Part shown: positions 13,279-29,441 of the stretch, one piece after another
Numbering within the stretch: the first letter of the stretch is position 1
Layout of the letters: each line of letters begins with the position of its first letter
Virus record (IMG/VR): IMGVR_UViG_3300036768_001133
Location: 1 to 64,000 of that record
Origin: a virus
Length of the DNA stretch: 64,000 nt
Strand: one strand, 5' to 3'
Notes under the pieces: model-generated
Database searches by the model: none
What the model saw: only the letters and a program-made list of their open reading frames with translations
Told to the model about the DNA's origin: nothing
Position numbers and translations under genes: made by a program

Positions 13279-13635
13279 GTGAAACTAAATGAAATTCGTA
13301 TGAGAAAGAAACAAGAAAATCTTGCCAAAGATTTTGACGCTGCAGTCAAACACAACAGGCAGGTATTGTTGGATTTAGGTATAAATCTAACAACAGCTAA
13401 AAAGGGCACATTTGAGGTGTCACTTTCGAAAAAGAAAGTTTCAAGAAGAAACTTCACAAAAAACGAAGTGGAGCAAAGGGAGCTATTCTTCATTAGCTCC
13501 AAATGCGGGAGTCTAAATTTTCCTGCAGATATGCTTGTGCTAACCAGTCCTAAGGTTAGCACAAAGTTAGAAGTGGCTCAGATTGAATATAACCAACGAG
13601 GTTATATTCAAAGGGTTATTGGTTCGTTCCAATAA
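13279..13635 (+). CDS. Small basic protein or structured RNA at the start of the early block
   Basis: 118 codons from ATG, with a Lys/Arg-rich product (MRKKQENLAKDF, then SKKKVSRRNFTKNEVEQ). No family is recognised. The DNA holds at least eight consecutive stem-loops, at 13333, 13366, 13422, 13479, 13535, 13583, 13613 and 13648, several with 10-12 perfect pairs. The stop codon is inside the hairpin at 13613-13638. The basic, coherent product favours a real protein, but the RNA structure is so dense that a functional RNA, alone or in addition, must be considered. It is the first gene after the divergent region. Confidence 0.5.
   Translation: MKLNEIRMRKKQENLAKDFDAAVKHNRQVLLDLGINLTTAKKGTFEVSLSKKKVSRRNFTKNEVEQRELFFISSKCGSLNFPADMLVLTSPKVSTKLEVAQIEYNQRGYIQRVIGSFQ
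13366..13393 (+). other. Stem-loop, 12 bp with one G-U pair
   Basis: Arms TTGTTGGATTTA and TAAATCTAACAA close on a 4-nt loop, inside the first early gene. Confidence 0.8.
13535..13564 (+). other. Perfect 11-bp stem-loop
   Basis: Arms TTGTGCTAACC and GGTTAGCACAA close on an 8-nt loop, inside the first early gene. Confidence 0.85.
13583..13611 (+). other. Perfect 12-bp stem-loop
   Basis: Arms TTGAATATAACC and GGTTATATTCAA close on the 5-nt loop AACGA. It is 1 nt from the next hairpin (13613-13638; arms GGGTTATTGG and CCAATAACCC). Confidence 0.85.
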
Positions 13636-13647
13636 CCCGTGTTGTGT

Positions 13648-13672
13648 GGGGGCAATTGCCCCCTCTTTTTTT
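13648..13672 (+). terminator. Rho-independent terminator after the first early gene
   Basis: A GC-only-edged palindrome with arms GGGGGCAA and TTGCCCCC is followed by TC and seven T. It is 12 nt after the stop of the preceding gene. Confidence 0.85.
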
Positions 13673-13725
13673 CAGCTTTTTTGGCTTTTTTTCGGTATTG
13701 CTTATTTATTTAAACAAAAAAAAGT

Positions 13726-13893
13726 ATGAAAAGATACCTTATTCATTACTATATACCCTCCCAAAATGTATTTTTGAGAGGGGTATTCGAAGCCGAAAGC
13801 AAATCGGCTTTAATTTCTGAATTGAGAGATTTAGGGTATAGAATTTACAATATTACTTCTATACCTAAACATTTTCATTCTTCTTCCAATTAA
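13726..13893 (+). CDS. Short unknown early protein, 55 aa
   Basis: 55 residues from the ATG at 13726. It begins MKRYLIHYYIPSQNVF and has FEAESKSALISELRDLGYRIYNI in its middle, a compact beta-alpha-beta pattern. No family is recognised. It contains a 7-bp hairpin (AAGCCGA/TCGGCTT, 13790-13810). The frame is intact between a terminator and the next gene, and it shows coding-like third positions, so it is probably real. Confidence 0.5.
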   Translation: MKRYLIHYYIPSQNVFLRGVFEAESKSALISELRDLGYRIYNITSIPKHFHSSSN

Positions 13894-13922
13894 CCACTTA
13901 AACCACTTAAACTTAAACGAAA

Positions 13923-14297
13923 ATGAAAGAAGGAAAAAAATACAAAATTATTAGACTCACCCCATACGTTATTAGTGTATGGGGGGACAATGGATATCTA
14001 AGTATTCGAACCCTAATAAGGAACTTATGTAACAAAGGGTTCTGTACAAGCTTCCTTGTGAAAAACAAGGAAATGCTTGGGTCTAATCCAACTATGTTGG
14101 ATAATGAAATTATTGATAATATGTTATTCCTTTACAGCCTCGATATAGAGGCGGTAAAGAAAGAATACGAAAGTATTCGTTTGTTTTTAGCCGAAAACCT
14201 AATTAGGTTTTCGGATGAACAATTTCAAAAGAGATATTCTGCCTCCTTTTATAGGAGGTATAGAAGCCTGCCCGACATATGGATCGAGGTAGGATAA
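13923..14297 (+). CDS. Unknown early protein in hairpin-rich DNA
   Basis: 124 residues, beginning MKEGKKYKIIRLTPYVISVWGD and ending DIWIEVG; mostly helical, basic, no motif recognised. Its DNA carries nested stem-loops at 13960, 14008, 14047, 14086, 14137, 14163, 14191 and 14242. They include a perfect 24-nt palindrome and a GAAA tetraloop hairpin. A terminator follows 6 nt after the stop. The ATG is preceded by two repeats of CCACTTAAA-like sequence. Small host-takeover proteins commonly occupy this place in phage early regions. Confidence 0.6.
   Translation: MKEGKKYKIIRLTPYVISVWGDNGYLSIRTLIRNLCNKGFCTSFLVKNKEMLGSNPTMLDNEIIDNMLFLYSLDIEAVKKEYESIRLFLAENLIRFSDEQFQKRYSASFYRRYRSLPDIWIEVG
14047..14079 (+). 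other. Stem-loop of 13 bp with a 2-nt bulge
   Basis: Outer CAAGC/GCTTG and inner TTCCTTGT/ACAAGGAA stems close on a GAAAA loop, inside the 13923 gene. Confidence 0.8.
14191..14214 (+). other. Perfect 24-nt palindrome inside a gene
   Basis: Each arm is 12 nt, starting CCGAAAACCT and ending AGGTTTTCGG, with AATT at the centre. Confidence 0.9.
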
Positions 14298-14303
14298 TAG
14301 TAT

Positions 14304-14343
14304 AGATAGATAACGACATTAGTTGTTATCTATCTTTTTTTTT
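14304..14343 (+). terminator. Rho-independent terminator
   Basis: Perfect 11-bp stem AGATAGATAAC/GTTATCTATCT with a 10-nt loop, followed by a run of nine T. It ends the transcript of the 13923 gene. Confidence 0.85.
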
Positions 14344-14350
14344 GGTTTTT

Positions 14351-14761
14351 ATGTTAGCAGATAAATCAAATTTTTCACTTTCTTCAAGCTCAAAACCCTT
14401 ATTAGGTGAGGGCTTGAAAGTAATAAAGGTATTAGGCACTATGAAGTGCCAAAACCTGTTGAGATATATAAACGAAAACTTTGACAAGTTTTCGTTTTAT
14501 GTAAATAATACTCTTTATTTATATTGTATAGATGAAGAGTATGAAGAGCAATATTATATAGGTGAATTAGAGAAGCCTATATATGGGGATTTCATAGTAA
14601 TGATAGTACCACCAAGTTTGGGTACTATTTATTACGATACAGATTACTATGGTAATATAGTGTATTACTATAGTAATATAGTATATAGTAATGCTAATGA
14701 TTTGGATAGTATTACTATGGAGAAAGAATACTATGGTATAAGATGTTTAATATCTATATAG
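14351..14761 (+). CDS. Unknown acidic, Tyr-rich early protein
   Basis: 136 residues from the ATG at 14351. A TTG three codons earlier is in frame but lies in the terminator T-run region. The C-terminal half is rich in Tyr, Asp and Glu, with repeated YYGNIVYYYSN-like strings. No motif recognised. The gene contains perfect hairpins at 14435 (GGCACT/AGTGCC), 14470 (12 bp), 14508, 14555 and 14603 (ATAGTACC/GGTACTAT). It ends with TAG, showing that TAG is a normal stop here. The gene order unknown, small membrane protein, 22-residue-repeat protein recurs at 18.5-19.5 kb. Confidence 0.6.
   Translation: MLADKSNFSLSSSSKPLLGEGLKVIKVLGTMKCQNLLRYINENFDKFSFYVNNTLYLYCIDEEYEEQYYIGELEKPIYGDFIVMIVPPSLGTIYYDTDYYGNIVYYYSNIVYSNANDLDSITMEKEYYGIRCLISI
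14470..14497 (+). other. Perfect 12-bp stem-loop inside a gene
   Basis: Arms AAACGAAAACTT and AAGTTTTCGTTT close on the 4-nt loop TGAC. Confidence 0.88.
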
Positions 14762-14804
14762 GGATTTAAATAAAAAAAACTTAGGGTAATTGAAAAAATG
14801 ACTT

Positions 14805-14933
14805 ATGGCAAGGATTCTATTCTTTATATTTCTTTTACTACTTTTAAATGCTGTTATGGTAATATTAGCATATTCGCAAATAAAATATGGATTGTATAAA
14901 ACAAAAAATATAAAATACATTAAAAAAATATAA
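14805..14933 (+). CDS. Small single-pass membrane protein
   Basis: 42 residues from the ATG at 14805. A strongly hydrophobic helix (residues 4-21) is followed by AYSQIKYGLYKTKNIKYIKK, a basic tail. The tail matches that of the product at 18347 (GYSQVK, then YLYKTKNVKYI), so the two are paralogues. Both sit shortly upstream of a 22-residue-repeat gene. A 19-bp duplication (ATATAAAATACATTAAAA) spans its stop codon and the start of the next gene. Function unknown; N-in, C-out or the reverse cannot be settled. Confidence 0.55.
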   Translation: MARILFFIFLLLLLNAVMVILAYSQIKYGLYKTKNIKYIKKI

Positions 14934-14946
14934 AATACATTAAAAT

Positions 14947-15525
14947 ATGGAGTTCATTATTGAATTAAGCAGGTTGAGGGAAACTCCCTGCGAAAGATAC
15001 CTTAAACATTTTGAAAATGGGAAAGTAGATGCTCTCAAGCTATTTAGAGAGCTTGGACAGAAATACGAATGGTTATACAACCATTCGGATTATGATATTA
15101 TAAGATTTGAAATAGAAAACGGGATATTTAATTGGGAAGAATATAGTTACTATGTTCCCCAATATTGTCCTGAATATTTTGATGGAAATAAATACAATTG
15201 GAGAGAAGATAGCTGGGCAATAGTTCAATATTGTCCAGAGCATTTTGATGGGGATAAATACAACTGGGAAAAAGATAGTTGGGCAATAGTTAAATTTTGT
15301 CCTGAATACTTTGATGGAAATAAATACAACTGGAAAGATCAAGGTTGGGCAATAGTTAAATATTGTCCTGAATACTTTGATGGAAATAAATACAATTGGG
15401 AGAAACATAGCTATTATGTAGCTATGTATTGTCCTAAATTGTTGGACAAGAATAAATACAATTGGAGAGAAGATAGTTGGGCAGTATCTGAATATTGTCC
15501 CGAACTATTGAAATATAAACCTTAA
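14947..15525 (+). CDS. 22-residue-repeat protein, copy 1 (six units)
   Basis: 192 residues. A conserved 55-residue N-terminal domain (starting MEFIIELSRLRETPCERYL, with DALKLFRELG) leads into six repeats of 22 residues. The consensus is KYNW-x4-WA-x3-YCPE-x2-D-x2, with Trp, Cys-Pro and an acidic residue at fixed places. The last unit ends in PELLKYKP. The regular 22-residue period suggests a helical solenoid, superficially like DUF4116-type repeats. Function unknown; one of four paralogues (also 18960, 19612, 20232). The 66-nt DNA repeat itself folds into a TGGGCAATA/TATTGTCCA-type hairpin. A terminator follows. Confidence 0.8.
   Translation: MEFIIELSRLRETPCERYLKHFENGKVDALKLFRELGQKYEWLYNHSDYDIIRFEIENGIFNWEEYSYYVPQYCPEYFDGNKYNWREDSWAIVQYCPEHFDGDKYNWEKDSWAIVKFCPEYFDGNKYNWKDQGWAIVKYCPEYFDGNKYNWEKHSYYVAMYCPKLLDKNKYNWREDSWAVSEYCPELLKYKP
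15066..15087 (+). other. Perfect 9-bp stem-loop inside repeat gene
   Basis: Arms CGAATGGTT and AACCATTCG with loop ATAC. The stem is degraded in the paralogues at 19.1 and 19.7 kb. Confidence 0.8.
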
Positions 15526-15534
15526 CATTTCATA

Positions 15535-15568
15535 ACACACAAAGTTACAAACTTTGTGTGTTTTTATT
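15535..15568 (+). terminator. Rho-independent terminator after repeat gene 1
   Basis: Perfect 11-bp stem ACACACAAAGT/ACTTTGTGTGT with loop TACAA, then a T-rich tract. It is 10 nt after the stop. Confidence 0.85.
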
Positions 15569-15610
15569 TGTGTTCGTTATTAGTTCAAAAATGTAACAAC
15601 AAAAATTTAA

Positions 15611-15739
15611 AAAATAGGCAAGTGTGATAAAGCCAATTACATAGACTACAAGTTCCTAGATAAAAAGCCCACTATTAGAGATTTTCAAGAAAAAAATCTA
15701 CTTACAAATTTTGAACTTTTTCAAGATATTGCCGCTTAA
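15611..15739 (+). pseudogene. Possible remnant of a coding sequence without a start
   Basis: An open frame of about 42 codons between in-frame stops reads KCDKANYIDYKFLDKKPTIR and then DFQEKNLLTNFELFQDIAA before TAA. The composition looks protein-like, but there is no ATG, GTG or TTG in frame. It may be the tail of a gene cut by rearrangement. It could also be chance in a 713-bp gap (15526-16238) that otherwise holds terminators, inverted repeats and iterons. Confidence 0.3.
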
Positions 15740-15748
15740 CTCACGTTA
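15737..15748. promoter_or_regulatory. Repeated motif TAACTCACGTTA, copy 1
   Basis: A 12-bp element (TAAC/GTTA inverted around TCAC) followed by TATAATAT. The same 12 bp recurs at 22545, again in a gene-free gap and followed by an AATAT-containing stretch. It is a candidate operator or phage-specific promoter element. Confidence 0.45.
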
Positions 15749-15757
15749 TATAATATT

Positions 15758-15795
15758 TATATGTGTGTAATAATTCACACATATAGATTTTTTTT
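15758..15795 (+). terminator. Rho-independent terminator
   Basis: Stem TATATGTGTG/CACACATATA (10 bp) with an 8-nt loop, then GA and eight T. It lies about 10 nt after the repeated 12-bp motif, so a very short transcript could end here. Confidence 0.75.
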
Positions 15796-15875
15796 ATGCT
15801 TACGCATACGCTAAATATATAAGAAAAGAAAATATAGGATAATACATTGTTTATCAATGTTTTACGATAAAAATT

Positions 15876-15938
15876 ATTACTCTATGGGGCTAATGAAATT
15901 ACTCTGTGGGAGTAATTTCAATAGTCTGTCAGAGTAGT
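15876..15938. repeat. Long three-tier imperfect hairpin built of 22-23-bp palindromic units
   Basis: Nested stems ATTACTCT/AGAGTAGT, GGCTA/TAGTC and GAAATTACTC/GAGTAATTTC are separated by symmetric 4x4 and 2x2 internal loops. That gives 23 pairs in 63 nt. Read linearly, it is three related units starting near 15876, 15899 and 15921, the middle one a perfect palindrome. It is either a structured RNA or part of an origin. Confidence 0.75.
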
Positions 15939-16002
15939 AAAAAATTTAAAAGAAGTCCTTTTTTTTTAGTTTATGTGTGCAATATACTAATATATAGTAA
16001 AA

Positions 16003-16041
16003 TAAGAGTTAAATAATTGATTATCATATATTTAACTCTTA
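16003..16041. repeat. 12-bp inverted repeat left of iteron array B
   Basis: Arms TAAGAGTTAAAT and ATTTAACTCTTA flank a 15-nt AT-rich centre. It ends 4 bp before the iterons. Confidence 0.85.
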
Positions 16042-16045
16042 TGAA

Positions 16046-16111
16046 AATGTCGTTTTCGGTTGATAATAATGTCGTTTTCGGTTAATAATAATGTCGTTTT
16101 CGGTTAATAAA
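16046..16111. repeat. Iteron array B: three 22-bp direct repeats
   Basis: Units at 16046-16067, 16068-16089 and 16090-16111 begin AATGTCGTTTTCGG and end TTAATAAT or a close variant. One base differs in unit 1, and the end of unit 3 varies. Unit number and period equal those of array A, but the sequence differs. The array lies 127 bp upstream of RepL-B and is bracketed by two 12-bp inverted repeats. This is a likely replication origin or initiator-binding region. Confidence 0.9.
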
Positions 16112-16136
16112 ATACACTATTTTGAGTGTATTTTAT
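16107..16136. repeat. 12-bp inverted repeat right of iteron array B
   Basis: Arms ATAAAATACACT and AGTGTATTTTAT with a 6-nt centre. It overlaps the last bases of the third iteron. Confidence 0.85.
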
Positions 16137-16196
16137 ACATTATTTGATATGTATAAAGAAAATGTATTTTAAGCTTTTTTTTTAATTTTTAATACT

Positions 16197-16204
16197 TATA
16201 TTTG
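16197..16204 (+). promoter_or_regulatory. Host-type promoter -7 box TATATTTG for RepL-B
   Basis: TATATTTG followed by TGTGTATT matches TAnnTTTG and the flank of the portal box on the other strand. It is 35 nt upstream of the RepL-B ATG and downstream of the iterons. Confidence 0.65.
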
Positions 16205-16238
16205 TGTGTATTAAATACTAATTATTAGATGTAAAAAT

Positions 16239-16721
16239 ATGAAAAATGCAAAGACAAAAATTTATGAAGAGATTAAAACTGTAATAAACGAAGATGGGGA
16301 AATAATTACAGCTGAATTTACAACAGTAAAAAAAGTAACTAAGGAAACGTTCTTACAGGTTTATTTAGATGATTTTTACTCCTTAATGAGAATTAGAGAG
16401 GGAAACGAATACAAATTAGTTCTGTGGATAGGTAAAAATATGAATTTCGATAATGAAATAATACTGGTTAAGGAAATAAAAAATAGAATCGCCAATGAAA
16501 TTGAGTGTAATGTAAGAACCATAGATAACTCAATACGGTCGTTGGTATCTAAGGGCATTTTAATCAAGTCTGGGAGGGCTATTTTTACTTTAAACCCACA
16601 TTTATTTTTCAAGGGCAGCTTAGACCAGCGGAATAAACTCAAAAAGCTTATAAAGAAAGTAGAATACGATTTCTTAGAAGAAGATGAAACAAAAGAAATA
16701 CAAAGTGATAGCAAAGGTTGA
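16239..16721 (+). CDS. repL: RepL-like replication initiator B
   Basis: 160 residues. The N-terminal 35 residues lead into TFLQVYLDDFYSLMRI, then a helix-turn-helix (EIKNRIANEIECNVRTIDNSIRSL) and a wing with GILIKSGRAIFTLNPHLFFKG. The layout matches RepL-A at 8778 and the RepL family pattern G-R-x3-LNP-x4-KG. The C-terminus is charged. It probably binds iteron array B, opens the origin and brings in the DnaB-type helicase encoded two genes later. Its last codons overlap the next gene by 38 nt. Confidence 0.8.
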   Translation: MKNAKTKIYEEIKTVINEDGEIITAEFTTVKKVTKETFLQVYLDDFYSLMRIREGNEYKLVLWIGKNMNFDNEIILVKEIKNRIANEIECNVRTIDNSIRSLVSKGILIKSGRAIFTLNPHLFFKGSLDQRNKLKKLIKKVEYDFLEEDETKEIQSDSKG

Positions 16722-16920
16722 TAATAACAAGTTTGTAAAGTATAACGTAAATAATTTGATTCTTTTCACGAAATTTCTTGACAGGAGCTTTCAGGTTTGT
16801 TGGCGTTGGTTCAATGTGATAGCAATATTTTGTTTGTTTTATATGGCTACTATTTTTACATTTGTGTTAGTAGTTAGTTTTATATTATTACCTATAAAGG
16901 TTATACTATGGTTAGTATGA
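16684..16920 (+). CDS. Small membrane protein between RepL-B and the helicase
   Basis: 78 residues. A basic polar N-terminus of about 40 residues precedes a hydrophobic region (residues about 45-77) long enough for one long or two short membrane helices. The start overlaps the end of RepL-B by 38 nt, and the stop overlaps the helicase start as ATGA, so it is translationally coupled to both. Function unknown; a membrane tether for replication is an inference. Confidence 0.6.
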   Translation: MKQKKYKVIAKVDNNKFVKYNVNNLILFTKFLDRSFQVCWRWFNVIAIFCLFYMATIFTFVLVVSFILLPIKVILWLV

Positions 16921-18209
16921 TAGATGTTGAATTAGACAGCATATATTATTGTCTAATAAACAATAGCAATATACGTATATTTGATAGGGAATACTATACA
17001 AAGGGTGATACTTTGTATATGTATGACAAGTTAGTTGAAATATATAATAAAGAAAAATATGTCAGTTTGAATATATTTAGGAATGAGATAAAGGGGGATA
17101 GTATATTGCATAAGTATTTATCTGTATATAATGATAAATATGTATGTAGTTATACTATTGAAGAATGTGAAAAGATAATGAGGAGAGACTACAATAGAAG
17201 GGTATTTATAGATATGATAAATGATAAGTCCTTATTAAGGGCTAGTGATGATAGGATATTGGAGGTGATGATGGAGGTCATAAGCAAGTTTAGGGGGAAT
17301 AAGATGGAAAATATAGTTAGTAATTTTGATAAGATGGTTGAATACATAATTAATGTAGATAATAACAGGTATAAAATAGGTATAGAGGGTATAGATAGTT
17401 CTATATCTATAGAGCCTGATAGGTTTATAGTGATAGGTGGGGCGAGTGGTAGTGGGAAGACAGCCTTCAGTGTATTTTTAATAAACAAGCTATGTCAGTT
17501 GTATAGTGATAGCTTGTATGTTTTATTTATAAGCCTTGAGATGAGTGAGATAAGAGTGATGATGAGGTTAATAAGTTTATTATCGGGAAAGAGCATTGGG
17601 GAGTTAAAGGCTGTAGATAAAAGTTTTTTTGAAGGGTATAGGGATATAATTAGTGGTTATTCATTAGATATAATGTATAGCACTATGGATATTCCAAAGT
17701 TATCTGCAGTATTGCAGATGCATATAAATGAAGCAAATAGAAAAGGTAAGATACCTGTGGTTTTTATAGACCATTTTGGAGAAGTAAGTGGTTTAGATGA
17801 ACATACAGCGAAATCTAACACAGATAAAGTAACCGCTTTGTGTAAGGATGTAGCAAGACAAGGCGGCATATGTTTCGGTCTTACGCAATTGCGTAAGGAT
17901 TTGTTAGATAAGAGGAATGAAGGCAGTTATTACAAGCCTTCAAATGGATACATTATGAATAGTCAGAGTGTAGAAGCGAGGGCAGATGTAATAATGCACT
18001 TGTGGAGACCTGAATATCATAATGTATTAGAGATAATAGAAGAGGAAAAAGATATGATAAGAGTAATAGATACAAGAGGTAGTATATGTATAGTAAATGA
18101 TAAGAACAGGGATTTTAAGAAGGGTGATATATGGCTGGATTGTGATATTAAAACGAATAGTTTTAAGGATATTCATAGTAGTAAAATACAAATTATTAAT
18201 AAATTTTAA
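16917..18209 (+). CDS. DnaB-type replicative helicase
   Basis: 430 residues from the ATG at 16917 (ATGA overlap); another ATG three codons earlier is possible. An N-terminal helical domain (about 1-130) is followed by a RecA-like ATPase. Walker A GASGSGKT ends near residue 182 (Lys181), and the Walker B strand VVFIDH has Asp285. A sensor-like QLRKD follows and Arg-rich residues lie near the C-terminus. The family forms hexamers that unwind DNA 5' to 3' at forks. The gene follows RepL-B, so the two likely act together at the origin. Its DNA contains perfect palindromes at 17485, 17702 and 17880. Confidence 0.88.
   Translation: MIDVELDSIYYCLINNSNIRIFDREYYTKGDTLYMYDKLVEIYNKEKYVSLNIFRNEIKGDSILHKYLSVYNDKYVCSYTIEECEKIMRRDYNRRVFIDMINDKSLLRASDDRILEVMMEVISKFRGNKMENIVSNFDKMVEYIINVDNNRYKIGIEGIDSSISIEPDRFIVIGGASGSGKTAFSVFLINKLCQLYSDSLYVLFISLEMSEIRVMMRLISLLSGKSIGELKAVDKSFFEGYRDIISGYSLDIMYSTMDIPKLSAVLQMHINEANRKGKIPVVFIDHFGEVSGLDEHTAKSNTDKVTALCKDVARQGGICFGLTQLRKDLLDKRNEGSYYKPSNGYIMNSQSVEARADVIMHLWRPEYHNVLEIIEEEKDMIRVIDTRGSICIVNDKNRDFKKGDIWLDCDIKTNSFKDIHSSKIQIINKF
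17485..17517 (+). other. Perfect 9-bp stem-loop in helicase gene
   Basis: Arms ACAAGCTAT and ATAGCTTGT around a 15-nt loop. Confidence 0.75.
17880..17897 (+). other. Perfect 18-bp palindrome in helicase gene
   Basis: Arms CTTACGCAA and TTGCGTAAG meet without a spacer, over the codons for the sensor region. Confidence 0.85.
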
Positions 18210-18219
18210 TTTAATTTAA

Positions 18220-18396
18220 ATGGAAAAGAAAACCATCATTATTGAATGTATAGGCGAGCAATATTCTGCCTATATAGAAGATATACCTGGGTTAATATCT
18301 TTTGGTACTAACCTAAAAGAGGTATTGGATAACTTAGTGGAGGGATATGAATTACATATGGAACTATTGTCAGAACTGGACGGAGATAACTATTAA
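18220..18396 (+). CDS. Orphan HicB-like antitoxin-fold protein
   Basis: 58 residues from the ATG at 18220. The sequence starts with a strand (KTIIIECIGEQYSAYIEDIPG), then SFGTNLKEVLDNLVEGYELHMELL. This is the HicB-like pattern: YxAxxxDxPG, then a G-T-x2-EV motif and a helix. Full HicB has an added DNA-binding domain, absent here, and no HicA toxin gene is adjacent. It may act as an antidote to a host HicA or as a small regulator. It follows the helicase by 10 nt and overlaps the next gene by 50 nt. Confidence 0.7.
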   Translation: MEKKTIIIECIGEQYSAYIEDIPGLISFGTNLKEVLDNLVEGYELHMELLSELDGDNY

Positions 18397-18556
18397 TGCT
18401 ATTATAGTAATAGTAGGATATTCGCAAGTAAAAGAAGCAAAGATAGAAGATAAGTATAAATTTGAAGACAAGATACTAATACCCGTATTAGAAGGGAAAT
18501 ATGGAAAAGAATACTTGTATAAAACAAAAAATGTAAAATACATTAATGTATATTAG
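18347..18556 (+). CDS. Small membrane-associated protein, paralogue of the 14805 product
   Basis: 69 residues. A weakly hydrophobic segment (INAIIVIVGYSQVK, about 16-29) is followed by an acidic/basic insert and the tail YLYKTKNVKYI shared with the 42-residue protein at 14805. The N-terminus overlaps the HicB-like gene in another frame, which suggests that the original start was replaced by recombination. Its stop overlaps the next gene start by 11 nt. Function unknown. Confidence 0.5.
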   Translation: MNYIWNYCQNWTEITINAIIVIVGYSQVKEAKIEDKYKFEDKILIPVLEGKYGKEYLYKTKNVKYINVY

Positions 18557-18935
18557 AGCGATAGGTAAAGATATAATTATATCTGTAGATAATGATTTAT
18601 TAAAGCCTTGTAATAGGATAACTTGGTTTTATCCTATTACAGACAAATGTAAAAATAGTATAGTATCGTATTTCAAAAAGCAAGGATATAGTATAGATAT
18701 CCTCAAAGAAGAATACATACTATATGAAGATGACTTGTATATTTGGTTATCTGATACAGATAATATACAGGGTATAGATTATGATTGTTTATATTGTGGT
18801 GGTGATAGTTTTGATATGGTAATAAACGGAAAAGAGCATAATATATGCTTAAAAGAAGATAAGCTATATGAAATAGTAATTGGTAATCACTATAATAAAA
18901 GCAGAATAATAAAGGCAGAACCGAAAAGCCTGTAA
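18546..18935 (+). CDS. Unknown acidic early protein
   Basis: 129 residues, rich in Asp, Tyr and Ile, with CLYCGGDSFDMVINGKEHNI in the second half. There are two nearby Cys (CLYC) but no second pair, so no zinc finger can be claimed. No family recognised. It contains a perfect 13-bp hairpin at 18609-18641 and a 7-bp one at 18683-18703. It holds the position of the 14351 gene ahead of a repeat gene. Confidence 0.6.
   Translation: MYIRAIGKDIIISVDNDLLKPCNRITWFYPITDKCKNSIVSYFKKQGYSIDILKEEYILYEDDLYIWLSDTDNIQGIDYDCLYCGGDSFDMVINGKEHNICLKEDKLYEIVIGNHYNKSRIIKAEPKSL
18609..18641 (+). other. Perfect 13-bp stem-loop inside a gene
   Basis: Arms TGTAATAGGATAA and TTATCCTATTACA close on a 7-nt loop. Confidence 0.88.
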
Positions 18936-18959
18936 TTAGGGGTAAAAAAAACAAGTAAA

Positions 18960-23671: not shown

Positions 23672-23985
23672 AAAAAATTAAAGATGAAGGTTTGCAACAA
23701 AAATTCGCAAAATATATCAAAAATAATGTATCATATAGAACATTATTTTTAGAGTTTATATTAGAAGAAATGAGTAAGCATATACCAAACATAAAAAGTT
23801 TGGTAGAAATATACAATGACAATTTTATAGTAATAGATATGAAAGAATTTACCATTGCTATTTACGAGTGTATAGAAAGAAATGGTATATTCATATATTC
23901 CACAGATACCTTTTGTCTTCTAAGACAATTGAGAGATGATATGAATGAACCTATTTGTGAATTGTTTGTAAAGACACTTGTTTAA
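23653..23985 (+). CDS. Unknown helical early protein
   Basis: 110 residues, mainly helical (EQLEKIKDEGLQQKFAKYI, LEFILEEMSKHI), no motif. It overlaps the preceding gene by 19 nt. It contains an 8-bp hairpin at 23783-23805 (TACCAAAC/GTTTGGTA). The next gene starts 1 nt after its stop. Confidence 0.6.
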   Translation: MFAEQLEKIKDEGLQQKFAKYIKNNVSYRTLFLEFILEEMSKHIPNIKSLVEIYNDNFIVIDMKEFTIAIYECIERNGIFIYSTDTFCLLRQLRDDMNEPICELFVKTLV

Positions 23986-23986
23986 T

Positions 23987-24319
23987 ATGGATATAAAAGT
24001 AAAAAAAAATGCTGTTATTCATATGTCAGTTTTAGATTTATACAATATTATTAAAAACAAAAAATCTAAATCTGATGAGGAAATATATCTAATGTGTATG
24101 ATACACTATTTGTTACACGATACCAATGATGTTCTTGTAATGAATAAAGTAAAAGATAATCTTGAAAACAATATACCTATTTATTATTTTCAAGATGTAT
24201 TAGATAATGTACTTAAAGATATAGATACAGAATACTTTTCTTTAAGTATAGTATTATATGAAAAAATAATATACGAATATCCAAGTATTAAAAAGGAAAA
24301 AACTAAACTTCCTTTCTAA
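23987..24319 (+). CDS. Unknown protein ending in KLPF
   Basis: 110 residues from the ATG at 23987; a TTG at 23978 is in frame but overlaps the previous gene. Helical, Asp/Tyr/Ile-rich. It ends KKEKTKLPF. The final Leu-Pro-Phe matches the end of the SSB encoded at 25053 but lacks the acidic residues before it. The stop shares one base with the next start (TAATG). Function unknown. Confidence 0.6.
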   Translation: MDIKVKKNAVIHMSVLDLYNIIKNKKSKSDEEIYLMCMIHYLLHDTNDVLVMNKVKDNLENNIPIYYFQDVLDNVLKDIDTEYFSLSIVLYEKIIYEYPSIKKEKTKLPF

Positions 24320-25056
24320 TGAAATACGAACTTGTTAAAGAAGGCGACTATTTCAGAATAGTCGCCCTAAAAGATATAGATAGCATTGGCATTAAAAAAG
24401 GCGATTTAGGTGGATTGGTAACAAATGAATATACGCTATCAAAAGTAGATGATAGCTGGATATTTGAGGATAGCATAGTAGAAGGAGAAGTAAGTGTATC
24501 AGGCAATAGTCTTATCATTGATAGCGATATTAAAGGTATAGGCTCAATATTTGCTTGTACTATTGTATCCTCTGATATAAGTATTTGTAATTTATTTCAG
24601 TCAAAAGTATTGCATAGTTATTTAACTAATGTTAATGCAAGCAATAGCTTTTTATTTAGAAGTGAAATATACGAAACAAGTTCCTTAAATAGTCAAATAT
24701 ACCATAGCAAAATTGAATATAGTAATGTGTATGACTCTGATGTAAAAGAATGTGTAGTAAAAAAAGATAGCAAGATACATAATTCATATGCCTATAAATG
24801 TGATATAGAACAATCTGATATTTATTTATCTAATTTGTGCGAAGCAGTTTTGATAAATAACATAATATTTAATGGTAAAATCTATATATTCAATAATACA
24901 CTTTATACTCATACTTGTAATAAAATAGATAACTCTTTTATTGTCAATTCAAATATATCAATGTCTAATTTAGACAACTGCCATATTATTTGTTCTGATA
25001 TATGCAGAGATATTGCAGATATAAAAATTATTAACCAAAATGATTACAAAAAATGA
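24319..25056 (+). CDS. Left-handed beta-helix-like repeat protein of phage type
   Basis: 245 residues. The opening (KKGDLGGLVTNEYTLSKVDDSWIFEDSIV) matches a widespread phage family with a GDLGG-x-V-x2-E-x2-LS-x5-WI-x3-A start. In that family a short domain is followed by hexapeptide-like rungs forming a beta-helix. The rest shows about 12 rungs of the type SDIKGIGSIFACTI with small residues at turns. Its role is unknown; in other phages it lies among early genes. A perfect 10-bp hairpin sits at 24343-24366. The stop overlaps the SSB start (ATGA). Confidence 0.65.
   Translation: MKYELVKEGDYFRIVALKDIDSIGIKKGDLGGLVTNEYTLSKVDDSWIFEDSIVEGEVSVSGNSLIIDSDIKGIGSIFACTIVSSDISICNLFQSKVLHSYLTNVNASNSFLFRSEIYETSSLNSQIYHSKIEYSNVYDSDVKECVVKKDSKIHNSYAYKCDIEQSDIYLSNLCEAVLINNIIFNGKIYIFNNTLYTHTCNKIDNSFIVNSNISMSNLDNCHIICSDICRDIADIKIINQNDYKK
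24343..24366 (+). other. Perfect 10-bp stem-loop near the start of a gene
   Basis: Arms GGCGACTATT and AATAGTCGCC with loop TCAG, 24 nt after the ATG. Confidence 0.88.
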
Positions 25057-25475
25057 AAGTCGCTTTTTTAGAAGGTAAGGTTTATACACAACCTAAAAGA
25101 ATTAAAACCAAATTTGGAAAAGAAGTGCTAAGCTTTTCCATTGGTATTAACAATAACTATAAAGACAAGTCAGGGAACTATGTTCAAAGACCTATGACTT
25201 ATATCAATCTAATATGTCATAACCCTGATTTATTTGATGTTATTGAAAATATTAGACTAAAACAAGATAAAGTTTCTTTACTTGCGACGTTTGATATTGT
25301 GGAAGAAAAAGCAGATGGTAAAATTGTTAAAAACACTTACTATTCATTAGTAGCTATAAGTGTTAATAATGATAAATTGTATGGTGCTTATAAAACCTTT
25401 AAAGACCATTTTACATTAAAAGAAGATTTATATGTCCCACCAAAAGAAACAGACAAAGAAGACTTGCCATTTTGA
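25053..25475 (+). CDS. ssb: Single-stranded DNA-binding protein (SSB)
   Basis: 140 residues. An OB-fold domain (about 1-110) begins KVAFLEGKVYTQPKRIKTK and contains VLSFSIGINN and PMTYINLICHNP strands. The C-terminus is ETDKEDLPF, matching the acidic D/E-D-L-P-F tip by which bacterial SSBs recruit helicases, nucleases and polymerases. It should coat single strands during replication and ERF-mediated annealing. The same KEDLPF tip ends the giant helicase protein at 45773. The stop codon lies in the loop of a hairpin that includes the next start. Confidence 0.9.
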   Translation: MKVAFLEGKVYTQPKRIKTKFGKEVLSFSIGINNNYKDKSGNYVQRPMTYINLICHNPDLFDVIENIRLKQDKVSLLATFDIVEEKADGKIVKNTYYSLVAISVNNDKLYGAYKTFKDHFTLKEDLYVPPKETDKEDLPF

Positions 25476-25489
25476 CTATAATATGGCAA
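25464..25489 (+). promoter_or_regulatory. Hairpin covering the start codon after ssb
   Basis: TTGCCAT (in ssb) pairs with ATGGCAA, which contains the ATG of the next gene. The ssb stop is in the 12-nt loop. Ribosomes finishing ssb would open the stem and expose the start, so translation of the two genes may be coupled. Confidence 0.55.
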
Positions 25490-25698
25490 AGGATTTATAT
25501 TATCAAATAAGGGCTATCTATAATAGCCCTTATTTGGAAGAAGAAAATTATGAAATTATTATAGCTTTAATGCAAGCAGTAAACGAAGACAAGGTAAATC
25601 CTGAATATTTACTCTATAAAGCAAAACTCTTGTCGCAAGAACAAAAAGAATTTAAACAAAAACTTTGTAATTTAATTAAAGCAAAATTTTGGATATGA
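25483..25698 (+). CDS. Small unknown protein after ssb
   Basis: 71 residues from the ATG at 25483, which fits the 8-nt gap after ssb; a longer frame back to 25432 would run into ssb. Helical, with SPYLEEENYEIIIALMQAVN in the first half. It contains the longest hairpin found, 14 perfect pairs at 25504-25536. The stop overlaps the next start (ATGA). No family recognised. Confidence 0.6.
   Translation: MAKDLYYQIRAIYNSPYLEEENYEIIIALMQAVNEDKVNPEYLLYKAKLLSQEQKEFKQKLCNLIKAKFWI
25504..25536 (+). other. Perfect 14-bp stem-loop inside a gene
   Basis: Arms CAAATAAGGGCTAT and ATAGCCCTTATTTG with the 5-nt loop CTATA. It is not followed by a T run, so it is not a standard terminator. Confidence 0.9.
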
Positions 25699-26087
25699 AA
25701 GAAAACTTAAAAGAAGTTATCAGCTTTTATGAGGATATTACAAATACCTCTATAAAAGAAATAAAAAGAGCTTTATACATTTACGAAAAACTTTCTTTCG
25801 CTAAATATAAAAGTCTTTCAGTTTTTTTGCAAACTTATATGTTATCTTGGGAAAAAGATATTGCTAATATAGATATTATCAATTTTCTATATTCAGAAAT
25901 CTTGTGGAATGCTAAAATAAAATTAGGAGAAAAATTATCAGATTGTATAGAAATTGTAGGTTCAAAGGAACATACAAGACTTAAAGTAAAAAAACGAGAT
26001 ATGCTTCAAAAACTATTAGCAAATGAAGATTCTTATAGAGTAGAAGACTTAAAAACATTACTTGCCTTACAAAAGTATAAGTTATGA
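25695..26087 (+). CDS. Unknown helical early protein
   Basis: 130 residues from the ATG at 25695, which overlaps the previous stop (ATGA); a TTG two codons earlier is less likely. All-helical, Lys-rich, with VKKRDMLQKLLANEDSY near the C-terminus. No family recognised. The stop overlaps the next start. Confidence 0.6.
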   Translation: MKENLKEVISFYEDITNTSIKEIKRALYIYEKLSFAKYKSLSVFLQTYMLSWEKDIANIDIINFLYSEILWNAKIKLGEKLSDCIEIVGSKEHTRLKVKKRDMLQKLLANEDSYRVEDLKTLLALQKYKL

Positions 26088-26473
26088 ACTATGAGTATTT
26101 TTTTTTGGCAGATAAAAGCAATGAAACTCAAAGAGTATATGTTGCTGTAACTACTAATAGCAGATACTATAATCTATATCCTAATAAAGTGTATAGGTGG
26201 GAAATAGAAAATGGTATAGCAAGCCCTATAAAACGTATGAATTATACTATACCTGTGGAAGATGAAAAAGCTATACAAGCCCTTGATAATATTGTAAAAT
26301 ACAAACAATTAGAAAGCATACATAAAAAGTATTTGCTTTATAGATACAATAAAAACATAGATATTATACAACCACTCATACAAATTCCTTATTCTTTGAA
26401 AATAAGAATAAAAGGGAATTTTGACAAAGATAAAAAGTATGTAGAAATTTATGCTAATCCTACCTATTTATGA
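26084..26473 (+). CDS. Unknown early protein, beta-rich start
   Basis: 129 residues. It starts NYEYFFLADKSNETQRVYVAV, continues with VYRWEIENGIASPIKRMNYT and ends in a beta-rich segment (LKIRIKGNFDKDKKYVEIYA). No motif recognised. Overlaps at both ends (ATGA) place it in the same translationally coupled series. Confidence 0.6.
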   Translation: MNYEYFFLADKSNETQRVYVAVTTNSRYYNLYPNKVYRWEIENGIASPIKRMNYTIPVEDEKAIQALDNIVKYKQLESIHKKYLLYRYNKNIDIIQPLIQIPYSLKIRIKGNFDKDKKYVEIYANPTYL

Positions 26474-26643
26474 TTGGAGAAAAAGTCTTAAAATTTTATG
26501 AAGCTTATACAGGTATAAAATACAAAATATCAGGGAAAAAACTTAAAAAATCAATAGATTTAGAGGAACTTATAAAGAAAGTAAAACAACACAAAAACTG
26601 CGATACAGAAATCTTTAACTTACTAAATTTGTTAGAATATTAA
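26470..26643 (+). CDS. Small basic protein, 57 aa
   Basis: 57 residues from the ATG at 26470, overlapping the previous stop (ATGA). Basic and helical: KVLKFYEAYTGIKYKISGKK, then LEELIKKVKQHKNCD. No family recognised. It is followed by an 18-nt gap before the TTG start of the RusA-like gene. The coupled start supports it as a real gene. Confidence 0.55.
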   Translation: MIGEKVLKFYEAYTGIKYKISGKKLKKSIDLEELIKKVKQHKNCDTEIFNLLNLLEY

Positions 26644-26661
26644 ACATACTATATTATACAC

Positions 26662-27075
26662 TTGGAAGAGCAAATAATATCTGTTATTAAAAACATAGTA
26701 CCATATCCTTTTGAGGACTTATGTATATTATACATAAGTCCCAAAGGGTATGTCAGACGTACAAAAGCAGATGCTTGGAAAAAGCGTAAATGCGTAATAG
26801 AATACTATGCCTATAAAGATTTACTACGTAATAGCATAGAAGGTAAATACATAGCTAATGAGGTACTTAAAGTAGTGTTCCTATTACAAGTACCACAAAG
26901 CCTATCTAATAAAAAGAAAAATGAACTATACTATACGCCTCATAAGAAAAAGCCTGATATAGATAACTTGGTGAAAGCTCTATTAGATACCTTTCACAAA
27001 CAAGACAATATAGTGCATACTATCTATGCACATAAAATATATGCTCCTTTTAATGCTATTGTATTACTAACCTAA
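26662..27075 (+). CDS. rusA: RusA-family Holliday junction resolvase
   Basis: 137 residues if the TTG at 26662 is used; no in-frame ATG exists between the upstream stop and the conserved core. The RusA signature KKKPDIDNLVKALLDTF has the catalytic Asp pair, and QDNIVHTIYAHKIYA follows as in other members. The enzyme is a dimer that resolves Holliday junctions and branched DNA, useful before packaging. It has a 27-nt duplex-forming hairpin at 26715-26741. The absence of an ATG and of a ribosome-binding site suggests weak translation. Confidence 0.88.
   Translation: MEEQIISVIKNIVPYPFEDLCILYISPKGYVRRTKADAWKKRKCVIEYYAYKDLLRNSIEGKYIANEVLKVVFLLQVPQSLSNKKKNELYYTPHKKKPDIDNLVKALLDTFHKQDNIVHTIYAHKIYAPFNAIVLLT
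26715..26741 (+). other. Perfect 11-bp stem-loop in the rusA gene
   Basis: Arms GGACTTATGTA and TACATAAGTCC with loop TATTA. Confidence 0.88.
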
Positions 27076-27088
27076 AAGTACAAATCTT

Positions 27089-27559
27089 ATGATTACCAAA
27101 GAAATCTTAGAAGCCCTAAAAGAAATTAACCTGCAAAAAGATTTTAACGAAGAAGATAAGAAACTTATTACAAATCTTTTACAAAATAAAGTGTTTAATA
27201 TCTATTACGTTATCAAACACTTGGAAAAAGATATAGACGAGTACAAAAATATTATAGACAAATACAAAAGTAAAATAAACAATACTCAACACAAAATAGA
27301 TTTTCTCAAAGACTTAATGCTTCAAGCAGTTAAACAAGAAAATATCAAATATATTACTGATGAAGATGGTGTTATACTACATACTATCTCACAAAGACAA
27401 TCTTATAGTATTATCATTACTGATGAAAACAACATACCTGATAACTTCAAAAAAGTTTCTTATACTATTGACAAAAATAAATTAAAAGATTATATTGCAG
27501 AAGGTAATATCGTAGAAGGTTGTTATATTGAAACAAAAGACTATTTAACCATTCACTAA
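27089..27559 (+). CDS. Siphovirus Gp157-like protein
   Basis: 156 residues. A coiled-coil region (HLEKDIDEYKNIIDKYKSKI, about 45-90) is followed by ENIKYITDEDGVI and by IPDNFKKVSYTIDKNKLKDYI, then VEGCYIETKDYLTI. The IPD-x-F-K-K-V-x4-DK-x2-LK pattern is the conserved end of the Gp157 family. The family occurs beside recombination genes in many phages; its exact role is not settled. It sits 13 nt after rusA and 2 nt before the next gene. Confidence 0.75.
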   Translation: MITKEILEALKEINLQKDFNEEDKKLITNLLQNKVFNIYYVIKHLEKDIDEYKNIIDKYKSKINNTQHKIDFLKDLMLQAVKQENIKYITDEDGVILHTISQRQSYSIIITDENNIPDNFKKVSYTIDKNKLKDYIAEGNIVEGCYIETKDYLTIH

Positions 27560-27561
27560 CT

Positions 27562-27744
27562 ATGCAACAAACACAATCTCTTAAAACTGTTCAAACACAA
27601 GATATTGAACAACTATTTGAAAAAAATAAAGAAGAAATACTTAAAAAAATTTTTGATATTAAGGATAAATATGGGCTTTCTTACAAAGAACTGACCTATG
27701 AAATCGTTAAATTCCTTTACCAAGAAATATATTTGTTTAGATGA
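27562..27744 (+). CDS. Small unknown helical protein
   Basis: 60 residues. It starts with a polar Gln/Thr-rich segment and continues with KNKEEILKKIFDIKDKYGL, a helical region. No motif. Overlap at its end with the next gene (ATGA) supports it as real. Confidence 0.5.
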   Translation: MQQTQSLKTVQTQDIEQLFEKNKEEILKKIFDIKDKYGLSYKELTYEIVKFLYQEIYLFR

Positions 27745-28424
27745 TTTACGTAAGCTTAGAACCTATACCAAAAGATTTTATTAAAACCAATGACAATTAT
27801 GTCCTCATCTATAATGATATAGATGAGAACTGCTTAAAATATAAAACCTTTCAAGATAAAGAAACTTTATATCAATCATATTACGAAAAAATACATCAAG
27901 GATATTGTATCATCATCCACGGACAAGATGATTTTGCTAAACTAATGACCTTTGATAGCAATAAAATACATACCGAATGTATAAATAGCATATTTATTTT
28001 GCCAAGCATCTATCAAGGTATGGAAAACTATAATCTGTCTGATATATTACGTATTACTGCCTTACAAAACGTTTTTACTAAACAATATGTAGAAAATATT
28101 ATACGCAATAATGTAATCTTTCAAACCGAAGGTATATTGCAAAACGTATCTTACGAGCTTTGCAAATCTGTTTTGTTACCTAATAAAACTATCAAAGATG
28201 TAAGATATGCAGGATTTATACTTTCATATGAACTTAAAAATATAGAAACATACGGAGAATTAAGATTTTCATCTGTCTCTGCAACTGATATAAAAGATTT
28301 AGAACTATACAATTTCTTTAACTATATGCTTGATAAATCTAATGATACTTTTATATTTGGCGATACAAATACACTTATCATTCATAAAAAAAATATAATG
28401 AATCAAGGATACTTAATACTATGA
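27741..28424 (+). CDS. Unknown early protein, 227 aa
   Basis: 227 residues of mixed alpha/beta composition, starting MIYVSLEPIPKDFIKTNDNY. It has no membrane helix, signal peptide or recognisable catalytic motif. A perfect 10-bp hairpin at 27804-27827 (CTCATCTATA/TATAGATGAG) lies in its first third. ATGA overlaps at both ends. Confidence 0.6.
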   Translation: MIYVSLEPIPKDFIKTNDNYVLIYNDIDENCLKYKTFQDKETLYQSYYEKIHQGYCIIIHGQDDFAKLMTFDSNKIHTECINSIFILPSIYQGMENYNLSDILRITALQNVFTKQYVENIIRNNVIFQTEGILQNVSYELCKSVLLPNKTIKDVRYAGFILSYELKNIETYGELRFSSVSATDIKDLELYNFFNYMLDKSNDTFIFGDTNTLIIHKKNIMNQGYLIL

Positions 28425-28639
28425 AAAAAGACATCAATCCAAAAGCTATCTTGCAAGGAACAAAAAACTTTTTGTTCAAAGATGATAAAATAGAAGAAAA
28501 AGCAAAAGAAAGACTTGCTATCTGTCAAGTATGCGAACATAATAGCCAAAAGAAAATTGCTACTTGCAATATCTGCGGTTGCATACTTGTCCTTAAAACA
28601 AGACAAGATGAACAAAAATGCCCTATAAACAAATGGTAA
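28421..28639 (+). CDS. Zinc-ribbon protein of phage type
   Basis: 72 residues. A lysine-rich start is followed by CQVCEHN, then CNICGC, then a final CPINKW. The Cys-x2-Cys, Cys-x2-Cys and terminal CP-x3-W arrangement fits a family of short treble-clef or zinc-ribbon proteins common in Bacteroidota phages. It probably binds zinc and another macromolecule. Its end overlaps the next gene by 22 nt. Confidence 0.65.
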   Translation: MKKDINPKAILQGTKNFLFKDDKIEEKAKERLAICQVCEHNSQKKIATCNICGCILVLKTRQDEQKCPINKW

Positions 28640-29127
28640 CACAATTGCCTAAGATTCTGCAAACTCAATATATCATCAATGAATATAATAGTTTGTATAA
28701 TACTATATCCCAAAAACTATTAGATAAGTTTGGGATAACTATTAGTATCTACGAACTGCAAAGTATCTATAATACCTACATTACTAAACAATTGCAAGAT
28801 GAAAAACAAAAAGATATTTGCGATTTTTTAATGAAAGGCTTTGATGTACAATACTTGTTTTCAGTTTATAGTTTTGATATAAAATATTTACTTGACTTGC
28901 ATAAAACAATTAAATATCTTGAAAATAAAAATATCTCTATTCATACTTTACTTATAGCACAAGACTATTTTGTAGAATATTTAAAGACATCATATACACA
29001 TACCTATCATTTAGAAGAACTACCTGACTATCTATACAATGCTATTGATTGGAAAGTAGTTGCTGAATACCTAAAAAAAGATTATCACAAAATAGAAATC
29101 TTTAACCAATCCTACTATTACAAATGA
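28618..29127 (+). CDS. Unknown helical early protein, 169 aa
   Basis: 169 residues if the ATG at 28618 is used; the ATG at 28633 is also possible and gives a shorter overlap. All-helical, rich in Tyr, Ile, Leu and Lys. No family recognised. A 9-bp hairpin (TATCCCAAA/TTTGGGATA) lies at 28706-28737. The stop overlaps the next start. Confidence 0.6.
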   Translation: MPYKQMVTQLPKILQTQYIINEYNSLYNTISQKLLDKFGITISIYELQSIYNTYITKQLQDEKQKDICDFLMKGFDVQYLFSVYSFDIKYLLDLHKTIKYLENKNISIHTLLIAQDYFVEYLKTSYTHTYHLEELPDYLYNAIDWKVVAEYLKKDYHKIEIFNQSYYYK

Positions 29128-29441
29128 AACAAACAATTGGATTAGACATCTACTTTGAAGTAGTAGAAGAATATTCAAAAGGAGATTATTATACACCTGA
29201 ATACTATTGCTGGGGTTATGATAACCTCGTTATCTTACTCAATGATAATGATGTTACTAAACTATTTGAAGACCATAAAAACGTGCAAACAGCAATATAT
29301 AGATACGCAGATAAATACTACCATAAAGACAAGGTAGAAACAAGTGTAGTAATAGATATAGATGTAGAAATAAATAATGATAGGATATTTTACAAAAATG
29401 TAGATATTACAGACTATCTTATAGATTGCTTCATTGAGTAA
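29124..29441 (+). CDS. Unknown acidic protein at the end of the early block
   Basis: 105 residues, acidic, Tyr- and Asp-rich: IGLDIYFEVVEEYSKGDYY at the start and DYLIDCFIE at the end. No family recognised. Its stop lies in the first copy of a 24-bp tandem repeat, and a strong terminator follows. It is the last plus-strand gene before the convergent late operon. Confidence 0.6.
   Translation: MKQTIGLDIYFEVVEEYSKGDYYTPEYYCWGYDNLVILLNDNDVTKLFEDHKNVQTAIYRYADKYYHKDKVETSVVIDIDVEINNDRIFYKNVDITDYLIDCFIE

Follow-up and report, generated by a model that had tools for sequence, protein, structure and literature searches.

Genome organization and hairpins of the early block

The window analyzed here is a 64,000-nt stretch of IMGVR_UViG_3300036768_001133, the 72.8-kb genome of an uncultured crAss-like phage. 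Its terminase and portal matched crAss-type profiles (phrog_6681, E 1.8e-76; phrog_6547, E 1.5e-66), its tblastn matches were crAss-like records and its placement in a tree agreed with this assignment. The crAss-like large terminase gene (9922..11772, minus strand) marks the late strand; when contigs of bacterial and archaeal genomes were scanned with a terminase profile, the matches were all distant and offered no clue to the host. Also on the minus strand, the 4093-aa protein encoded at 33479..45760 is probably the virion RNA polymerase (vRNAP) of this phage, as judged from its RIPT...IVGF...GSDNDGD block, which is in register with the RNA polymerases of phi14:2, FPSV and uncultured phages but scores weakly in hhalign (E 0.0046, probability 7.6%). 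The cultured phages phi14:2 and crAss001 resemble the window in terminase, portal, divergent early and late blocks and a giant DxDxD-motif protein in the same sequence block. Yet the window differs from the named crAss-like phages, with a terminase identity of only 28% and DNDGD in place of DFDxD.

The early/middle block lies on the plus strand (13209..29478) and includes genes for a DnaB-like helicase (433 aa, 16908..18209), an Erf-like ssDNA-annealing protein (21251..21793) and a RusA-like Holliday junction resolvase (26662..27075). Based on the literature on crAss001 and phi14:2 and on the polymerase motif block, we infer that it would be transcribed early by the ejected vRNAP. A search of the window for known RNA families returned only DUF805b and one tRNA, plus sub-threshold matches.

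A previous sequence-only reading had named ten plus-strand hairpins in this block, and all ten are present. Most of the stem lengths that it gave are exact: 11 bp with an 8-nt loop at 13535..13564 (within ORF 13279-13635), 12 bp with a 5-nt loop at 13583..13611, 12 bp with a 4-nt loop at 14470..14497 (ORF 14342-14761), 13 bp with a 7-nt loop at 18609..18641 (ORF 18546-18935), 10 bp with a 4-nt loop at 24343..24366 (ORF 24319-25056), 14 bp with a 5-nt loop at 25504..25536 (ORF 25432-25698) and 10 bp with a 4-nt loop at 27804..27827 (ORF 27741-28424). However, the stem within the RusA gene (26715..26741, 3-nt loop) measures 12 bp instead of 11, and two others are perfect palindromes: one of 24 nt at 14191..14214, which as a hairpin has a 10 bp stem and a 4-nt AATT loop, and one of 18 nt in the helicase gene (CTTACGCAATTGCGTAAG, 17880..17897), with a 7 bp stem and a 4-nt loop. 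Further plus-strand hairpins have a 10 bp stem and a 6-nt loop spanning a stop codon (13613..13638), or are intergenic, with stems of 14 bp (13-nt loop, 16002..16042, adjoining 22-bp direct repeats) and 12 bp (6-nt loop, 16107..16136).

Intrinsic terminators, on the same strand, are formed by stems of 11 bp (14304..14335) and 13 bp (29457..29487), each followed by T8, the latter at the block's convergent end; a 13 bp stem with a 3-nt loop followed by TTTATTT (15534..15562) is terminator-like. Only a minority of the stems resembles the intrinsic terminators found between phage early genes (GC-rich stem plus T run), whereas the rest lack T runs and lie mostly in genes. The earlier remark that most have no T run was right, since only 4 of 33 stems of at least 9 bp, those at 14304 and 29457 among them, are followed by at least six T in the next eight bases.

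Excess of stems over shuffled sequences

Counting perfect stems of at least 7 bp with loops of 3-15 nt, we found 89 in 13209-29441 (5.48/kb), 24 in 1-13200 (1.82/kb) and 71 in 29479-64000 (2.06/kb). Within the genes of the early block there were 71 stems. Codon shuffles gave 26.0+-4.1, and codon+dinucleotide shuffles, by which short genes are hardly shuffled, gave 51.2+-3.5; for perfect in-gene stems of at least 10 bp the count was 14, against 1.5 and 6.6, respectively. The excess over codon shuffles (71 vs 26.0) rules out chance or composition as the cause of the hairpins. The early-block excess first noticed by eye is thus confirmed, and is wider than claimed. It holds over both codon- and dinucleotide-preserving shuffles, with a lower density in late genes. 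The same control gave 18 stems against 13.3 expected in the minus-strand left genes and 71 against 52.7 in the late genes, a weak residual excess of 1.3-1.35x, which in essence bears out the statement that the late genes contain nothing similar. Along the block the distribution is uneven. Stem density falls from 9-10/kb at 13-15 kb to 2-4/kb by 26-29 kb, the head (13.2-17.2 kb) is the densest part and the in-gene excess over codon shuffles peaks in the first 4 kb (3.4x). The helicase gene contains nine stems of at least 7 bp, and the intergenic DNA of the block is as stem-rich as its genes (6.5/kb).

Occurrence in other phages

Six relatives, all uncultured crAss-like phages, are also hairpin-rich in the first ~6 kb, or head, of the divergent early block, where in-CDS stems reach 3.9x (G001), 3.2x (G019), 2.7x (L113), 2.6x (G020 and L243) and 2.2x (G002) of expectation. 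The excess mostly declines downstream and is absent from their late genes. The early heads of G001 and G002 are non-homologous. In G019 and L130, small early genes are separated in several places by true terminators that have GAAA loops and T runs; G019 and G020 are relatives of FPSV from freshwater. This is not a trait of all crAss-like phages: the early blocks of the cultured crAss001, phi14:2 and FPSV-S29 showed no hairpin excess and about a dozen uncultured loci were low. Since phi14:2, with known early vRNAP transcription, and crAss001, with the same layout, do without the excess, that life cycle does not require it. Nor is it a trait of phage early genes in general, as T7 is depleted (0.36x) and lambda, T4 and N4 gave 0.8-1.2x, 1.4-1.5x and 1.9x, respectively.

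Folding energy, strand and start codons

A fold-energy test against composition-matched shuffles across the coding regions put the early block of the window well above the late genes. MFED was 33% for the head (13.2-17.2 kb), 19% for the rest of the block (17.2-29.4 kb) and about 6% for the late genes, and the heads of the relatives reached 26-41%, percentages that are inflated in AT-rich sequence such as these heads. In each hairpin-rich block the sense RNA folds more stably than the antisense (p 0.0013-0.03). Among stems of at least 10 bp with a single mismatch in nine heads, G-U occurred 48 times and A-C 23 times, whereas shuffles expect 4.6 and 5.2 (p = 3.5e-4); this static bias is significant at stem lengths of 10 and 12, with p 0.13 for stems of at least 9 bp and 0.06 for those of at least 11 bp. 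Start codons (+-20 nt) are avoided, with a hairpin cover of 3.3% vs 13.8% in the window (p 0.005) and of 3.9% vs 14.8% in the other heads (0/3000). The ribosome entry sites are open, and the hairpin-rich RNAs would therefore be translated.

Constraint and turnover between strains

Searches with the helicase, Erf and repeat protein found nothing closely related to the early block of the window, and the near-identical contig L003 ends at about 12.9 kb, short of the block; constraint was therefore measured in relatives only. These were the strain pairs L209/L211 and L241/L243, together with the L212/L213 heads at 70-84% identity. In the first two pairs, substitutions per site amounted to 0.0257 in stems, 0.065 in their own loops and 0.062+-0.012 in moved stems (0/1000). 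The synonymous rate in early-gene stems was 0.074, against 0.194+-0.040 when the stems were repositioned inside their own ORFs (0/2000), whereas the downstream genes showed no difference (0.168 in stems, 0.167 in moved stems). The head ORFs are mostly protein-constrained (dN/dS up to 0.45 in 9 of 11). Net stem constraint was not found in the L212/L213 heads, and changes to G-U vs A-C in the strain comparisons (18 vs 12, p 0.18; 10 vs 3 in L209/L211 alone) did not differ significantly. Compensatory changes, which the sequence-only reading had proposed to look for in relatives, were few, with compensatory alteration of both arms in 5 of 58 changed pairs.

Stems are kept at 85-98% identity and largely broken at 70-80%, though both lineages are hairpin-rich. 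We found no hairpin conserved between lineages and no fixed position relative to genes. Single hairpins turn over while their overall abundance is maintained. As a covariation set, paralogous genes of the window (14.9, 19.0, 19.6 and 20.2 kb) gave G-U 27 and A-C 13, but this set was rejected because many pairs are broken and the genes are not independent. Phages of F. psychrophilum were dropped as a cultured set because their heads are hairpin-poor and the strains near-identical.

Origin and possible function of the hairpins

The hairpins are probably mRNA structure of the sense strand that selection has built and maintains in the first-expressed genes of these crAss-like phages. The G-U bias, the sense folding and the silent-site constraint all point to selected structure, one of the causes suggested from the sequence at the outset, and the early-only synonymous constraint and the free start codons support it as well. 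The non-template DNA strand, identical in sequence to the mRNA, could when single-stranded be the carrier of the stems instead. Template switching at quasi-palindromes during replication, also suggested at the outset, would perfect inverted repeats in a fast-evolving early region that tolerates them. The unusual perfection of the stems fits a mutational origin, as do the equally rich intergenic DNA of the block and the concentration of stems where the genome is most variable and rich in ORFans and where G001 and G002 share no homology. Such an origin, however, predicts frequent double arm changes and neither a sense bias of G-U over A-C, nor avoidance of start codons, nor a synonymous stem constraint limited to early genes, all contrary to what was seen, and conserved genes such as the helicase bear stems too. 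We consider it improbable as the main cause. The third suggestion, hairpin promoters read by the ejected polymerase as in N4, is very improbable, and so are DNA palindromes bound by a protein such as a regulator. The N4 virion polymerase uses a handful of short hairpins that precede the starts and are conserved in loop and sequence. The window shares with N4 early genes, hairpins, many of them perfect, and probably an ejected polymerase, but it has dozens of hairpins, far more than promoters would require, mostly inside genes and with G-U favored in the sense strand. The 54 stems of at least 8 bp have no k-mer or loop in common, the top k-mer count being below the null, and this lack of consensus speaks against a promoter or operator motif.

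Two further explanations accept the RNA as the carrier. Nascent hairpins could help the QDE-1-like virion polymerase to free its RNA from the template, limiting R-loops and backtracking, so that its transcripts would be hairpin-rich. The phage has the vRNAP motif block, and the hairpins occur where this enzyme is thought to act, in early genes and, as far as the window is concerned, in middle genes as well, but not in late genes, the presumed targets of the host RNA polymerase (PMC10136315). This is nonetheless unlikely, given that phi14:2 and crAss001 show no excess and that relatives are rich mainly in the first ~6 kb, their replication genes, also assigned to the vRNAP, being much poorer. 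Slightly less likely again is a tuning of expression, in which hairpins act as brakes on ribosomes or determine mRNA decay or processing (RNase III sites, for example) and so fix the ratio or timing of early proteins. Hairpins within genes, open start sites and the true terminators of G019 and L130 agree with it, but such sites should be placed and kept, whereas the hairpins have no fixed gene position and are not conserved between lineages.

Selected mRNA structure suggests that folding serves the phage to shield or tune the transcripts that it makes first. The ejected and uncoupled phage polymerase would make rare early transcripts within minutes, their mRNA would fold into back-to-back hairpins and, with ribosome entry sites staying open, the folded RNAs would be translated. 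As the most likely function we tentatively propose that folding could protect these rare transcripts against RNA-targeting immunity and against host RNases specific for single strands. More speculatively, the fold could be a passive, sequence-independent shield against type III/VI CRISPR and RNase toxins, arisen at least twice in crAss-like phages, with a hairpin content that tracks the RNA-level immunity of Bacteroidota hosts. The fold resembles the genome-scale ordered RNA structure (GORS) of HCV, pegivirus and coronaviruses (PMC7642675, PMC3950689), a kind of structure linked to persistence or innate-immune evasion. Both consist of consecutive, energetically favored stem-loops across coding sequence, with MFED raised over dinucleotide-preserving shuffles and sense-specific structure, and in both the amount of pairing is maintained although its positions are poorly conserved. 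However, GORS covers the whole genome of positive-strand RNA viruses, whereas here it is the mRNA of a dsDNA tailed phage and the first-expressed block only, with stems that are short, local and often perfect. The 26-41% of the phage heads exceeds the published 7-11% for HCV and 15% for SARS-CoV-2 (PMC7642675), although AT-rich sequence inflates the phage values.

Synonymous sites in hairpin-rich early blocks are not neutral and should be used with caution, and the hairpins provide a sequence signature of the first-transcribed block in some uncultured crAss-like phages. Positive-strand RNA viruses are known to have pervasive RNA structure under selection, with a role that is still under debate. 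A strong version restricted to the early genes of DNA phages, with constraint at silent sites and the late genes as a built-in control, makes its function testable in bacteria.

Gene layout

The window belongs to an uncultured virus with a full record of 72,795 bp. Profile matches of its terminase and portal place it in the crAss-like families, the terminase being 28% identical to those of named members. Its plus-strand block (13.2-29.4 kb) sits between minus-strand late genes on both sides, with a GC skew flip accompanying the strand switch, and encodes a DnaB-like helicase, Erf, RusA, a Mu Gam-like protein and many ORFans. In the cultured phages crAss001 and phi14:2 the counterpart blocks hold the early and middle genes; in phi14:2, transcription that resists rifampicin points to the virion polymerase (PMC10136315, PMC8375218). 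A 4093-aa minus-strand protein of the window carries RIPT...IVGF...GSDNDGD, which lines up in register with the catalytic block found in the virion RNA polymerase of phi14:2 and in relatives of that enzyme; as the profile score is weak, it is a probable rather than a proven virion RNA polymerase. Within another giant minus-strand ORF (45773-54421, 2882 aa), residues 1874-1978 match a viral superfamily-1 RNA helicase-like domain (Pfam Viral_helicase1), which is unusual for a giant ORF on the virion strand. The early ORF 16239-16721 (+) shows 27% identity to the site in L003, a contig 97-99% identical to the window, that corresponds to late ORF 8778-9227 (-), which suggests paralogues in the two blocks.

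Hairpin excess in the early block

The sequence-only reading had described the block as filled with stem-loops inside coding sequence, and the counts agree. Perfect stems (at least 7 bp, loop 3-15) occur at 5.48/kb, against 1.82 and 2.06/kb in the flanks. Within the block genes there were 71 stems versus 26±4 when synonymous codons were permuted, and 14 versus 1.5 for stems of at least 10 bp. The excess persisted (z 5.7) under a stricter shuffle that also fixed junction dinucleotides, for which the expectation stays at 51±3.5 because short genes have few movable codons. The impression that late genes hold nothing similar was right in that the signal is far weaker there, but a residual 1.35x excess over the codon shuffle was found. 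RNA folding in 100-nt windows against codon shuffles gave a mean z of -3.2 for plus genes and -1.0 for minus genes. Hairpin density peaks beside the divergence point and declines along the block.

Four paralogous plus-strand genes (14947-15525, 18960-19538, 19612-20226 and 20232-21011) consist of 66-bp (22-aa) repeats, SWAIAxxCPxxLDKxxYNW, and the protein repeat itself encodes a hairpin (TGGGCAATA...TATTGCCCA). One member scanned against Pfam and one searched among named phage records gave no match. An Rfam DUF805b cis-regulatory RNA match (19554-19589, +; 40.1 bits, gathering 35.6) lies just upstream of the 19612 gene, and weaker, sub-threshold copies (18912-18942 and 20187-20217, +) lie beside its paralogues. 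Three 22-bp direct repeats (AATGTCGTTTTCGGTTAATAAT; 16046-16110, +) between two long intergenic hairpins are iteron-like, possibly an origin or operator. A perfect 24-bp tandem duplication (29418-29465) lies where the last early gene ends and extends into the convergent terminator hairpin. L003 starts at the edge of the block (about 12.9 kb in the window); the hairpin-rich block may be an obstacle to assembly or may vary from strain to strain.

Recurrence in other crAss-like phages

Among 80 terminase loci from IMG/VR, most of the richest stretches besides the window again fell within the block divergent from the terminase. In-gene excess over its first ~6 kb (the head) reached 3.9x in G001, 3.2x in G019, 2.7x in L113, 2.6x in G020 and 2.2x in G002, and in the next 6 kb it was mostly down to 1.0-1.4x, except in G001 (2.3x). 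L243, an additional hairpin-rich phage from a marker-gene search, showed 2.6x. Many other uncultured loci gave ~1-2x, with a few short blocks of weak stems at 2.5-2.9x, and the cultured crAss001, FPSV-S29 and phi14:2 gave 0.5x, 1.25x and 1.5x. Outside this group, phage N4 genes at 0-34 kb (L227) showed 1.9x over codon shuffles and phage T7 (L228) was depleted (0.36x). Hairpin-rich genomes, uncultured contigs in every case, occupy two places in the terminase tree, the window lineage and a clade including the cultured F. psychrophilum phage FPSV-S29; at least two changes would be needed, the exact history being unsure because of long branches. In the G019 head (L130, L205-L208), a terminator with a GAAA loop and a T run comes after each small early gene, apparently forming many short early transcription units.

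Folding strand and selection

In nine heads, stems of 10 bp or more that were perfect but for a single mismatch had G·T there in 48 cases and A·C in 23 (expected 4.6 and 5.2; p 3.5e-4), with the same direction for stems of at least 9 (p 0.13) and at least 11 (p 0.06). In the sense RNA, such a G·T mismatch pairs as G·U. Since sense RNA was also more stable than antisense in every hairpin-rich block, the folding sequence is identified as that of the mRNA strand. The displaced non-template DNA strand, which would look like mRNA, could also be the folding molecule.

Selection was tested in two strain pairs spanning hairpin-rich heads (L209/L211 and L241/L243), the constraint being measured in relatives rather than in the window lineage. 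Per-site change in the heads was 0.0257 in stems, 0.065 in their own loops and 0.062±0.012 in randomly moved stems (0/1000 as low), whereas stems (7 bp or longer) and loops of the downstream genes changed equally (0.052 and 0.053). The majority of head ORFs are genuine genes, as dN/dS is up to 0.45 in 9 of 11. The strongest single result is the constraint on silent sites in early-gene stems: synonymous change was 0.074 versus 0.194±0.040 for stems moved within the same ORF (0/2000), and 0.168 versus 0.167 downstream. The sequence-only reading had proposed looking for compensatory changes in related phages; in strain comparisons, G·U against A·C changes (18 versus 12) leaned the same way without significance. 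Hairpins were mostly replaced between relatives at 70-80% identity, so what persists is the overall amount of structure rather than individual hairpins. Hairpin cover at start codons was 3.3% versus 13.8% in the window and 3.9% versus 14.8% in six other heads (0/3000), as expected for translated mRNA.

Role of the folding

Three causes had been proposed from the sequence. Sense bias, silent-site constraint and start-codon avoidance favor selected mRNA structure; template switching and N4-like hairpin promoters fail specific tests. The folding resembles the genome-scale ordered RNA structure (GORS) of RNA viruses in how it works, but the phage is not a GORS virus, as its folding is encoded in DNA and concentrates in a single block. 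The folding-energy measure MFED (350-nt fragments, dinucleotide shuffles) was 33% in the window head, 26-41% in relatives' heads, about 6% in late genes, 11% in the crAss001 head and 9% in that of phi14:2. For GORS, the literature gives 7-11% in HCV, 15% in SARS-CoV-2 and as much as 23% in a deltacoronavirus (PMC7642675); as a small denominator inflates percentages in AT-rich sequence, the comparison is qualitative. No report of GORS-like folding in a DNA phage was found in the literature searched, whose coverage was incomplete.

The ejected virion polymerase would transcribe the hairpin-rich block, and the main rival explanation is that hairpins aid this enzyme through RNA release and fewer R-loops; the fact that phi14:2 and crAss001 manage without hairpin excess weakens this rival. 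Hairpins might instead tune translation or decay, but this predicts placed, conserved hairpins. Our results show selected local folding of sense-strand mRNA concentrated in the presumed first-expressed genes, extending over the whole block in the window and mainly over the first ~6 kb in relatives. Its most likely role would be to shield early transcripts against single-strand-specific RNases or RNA-targeting immunity, given that the signal peaks in what are presumably the earliest transcripts and does not depend on gene identity or sequence, ribosome entry sites are spared and the hairpin units are interchangeable.
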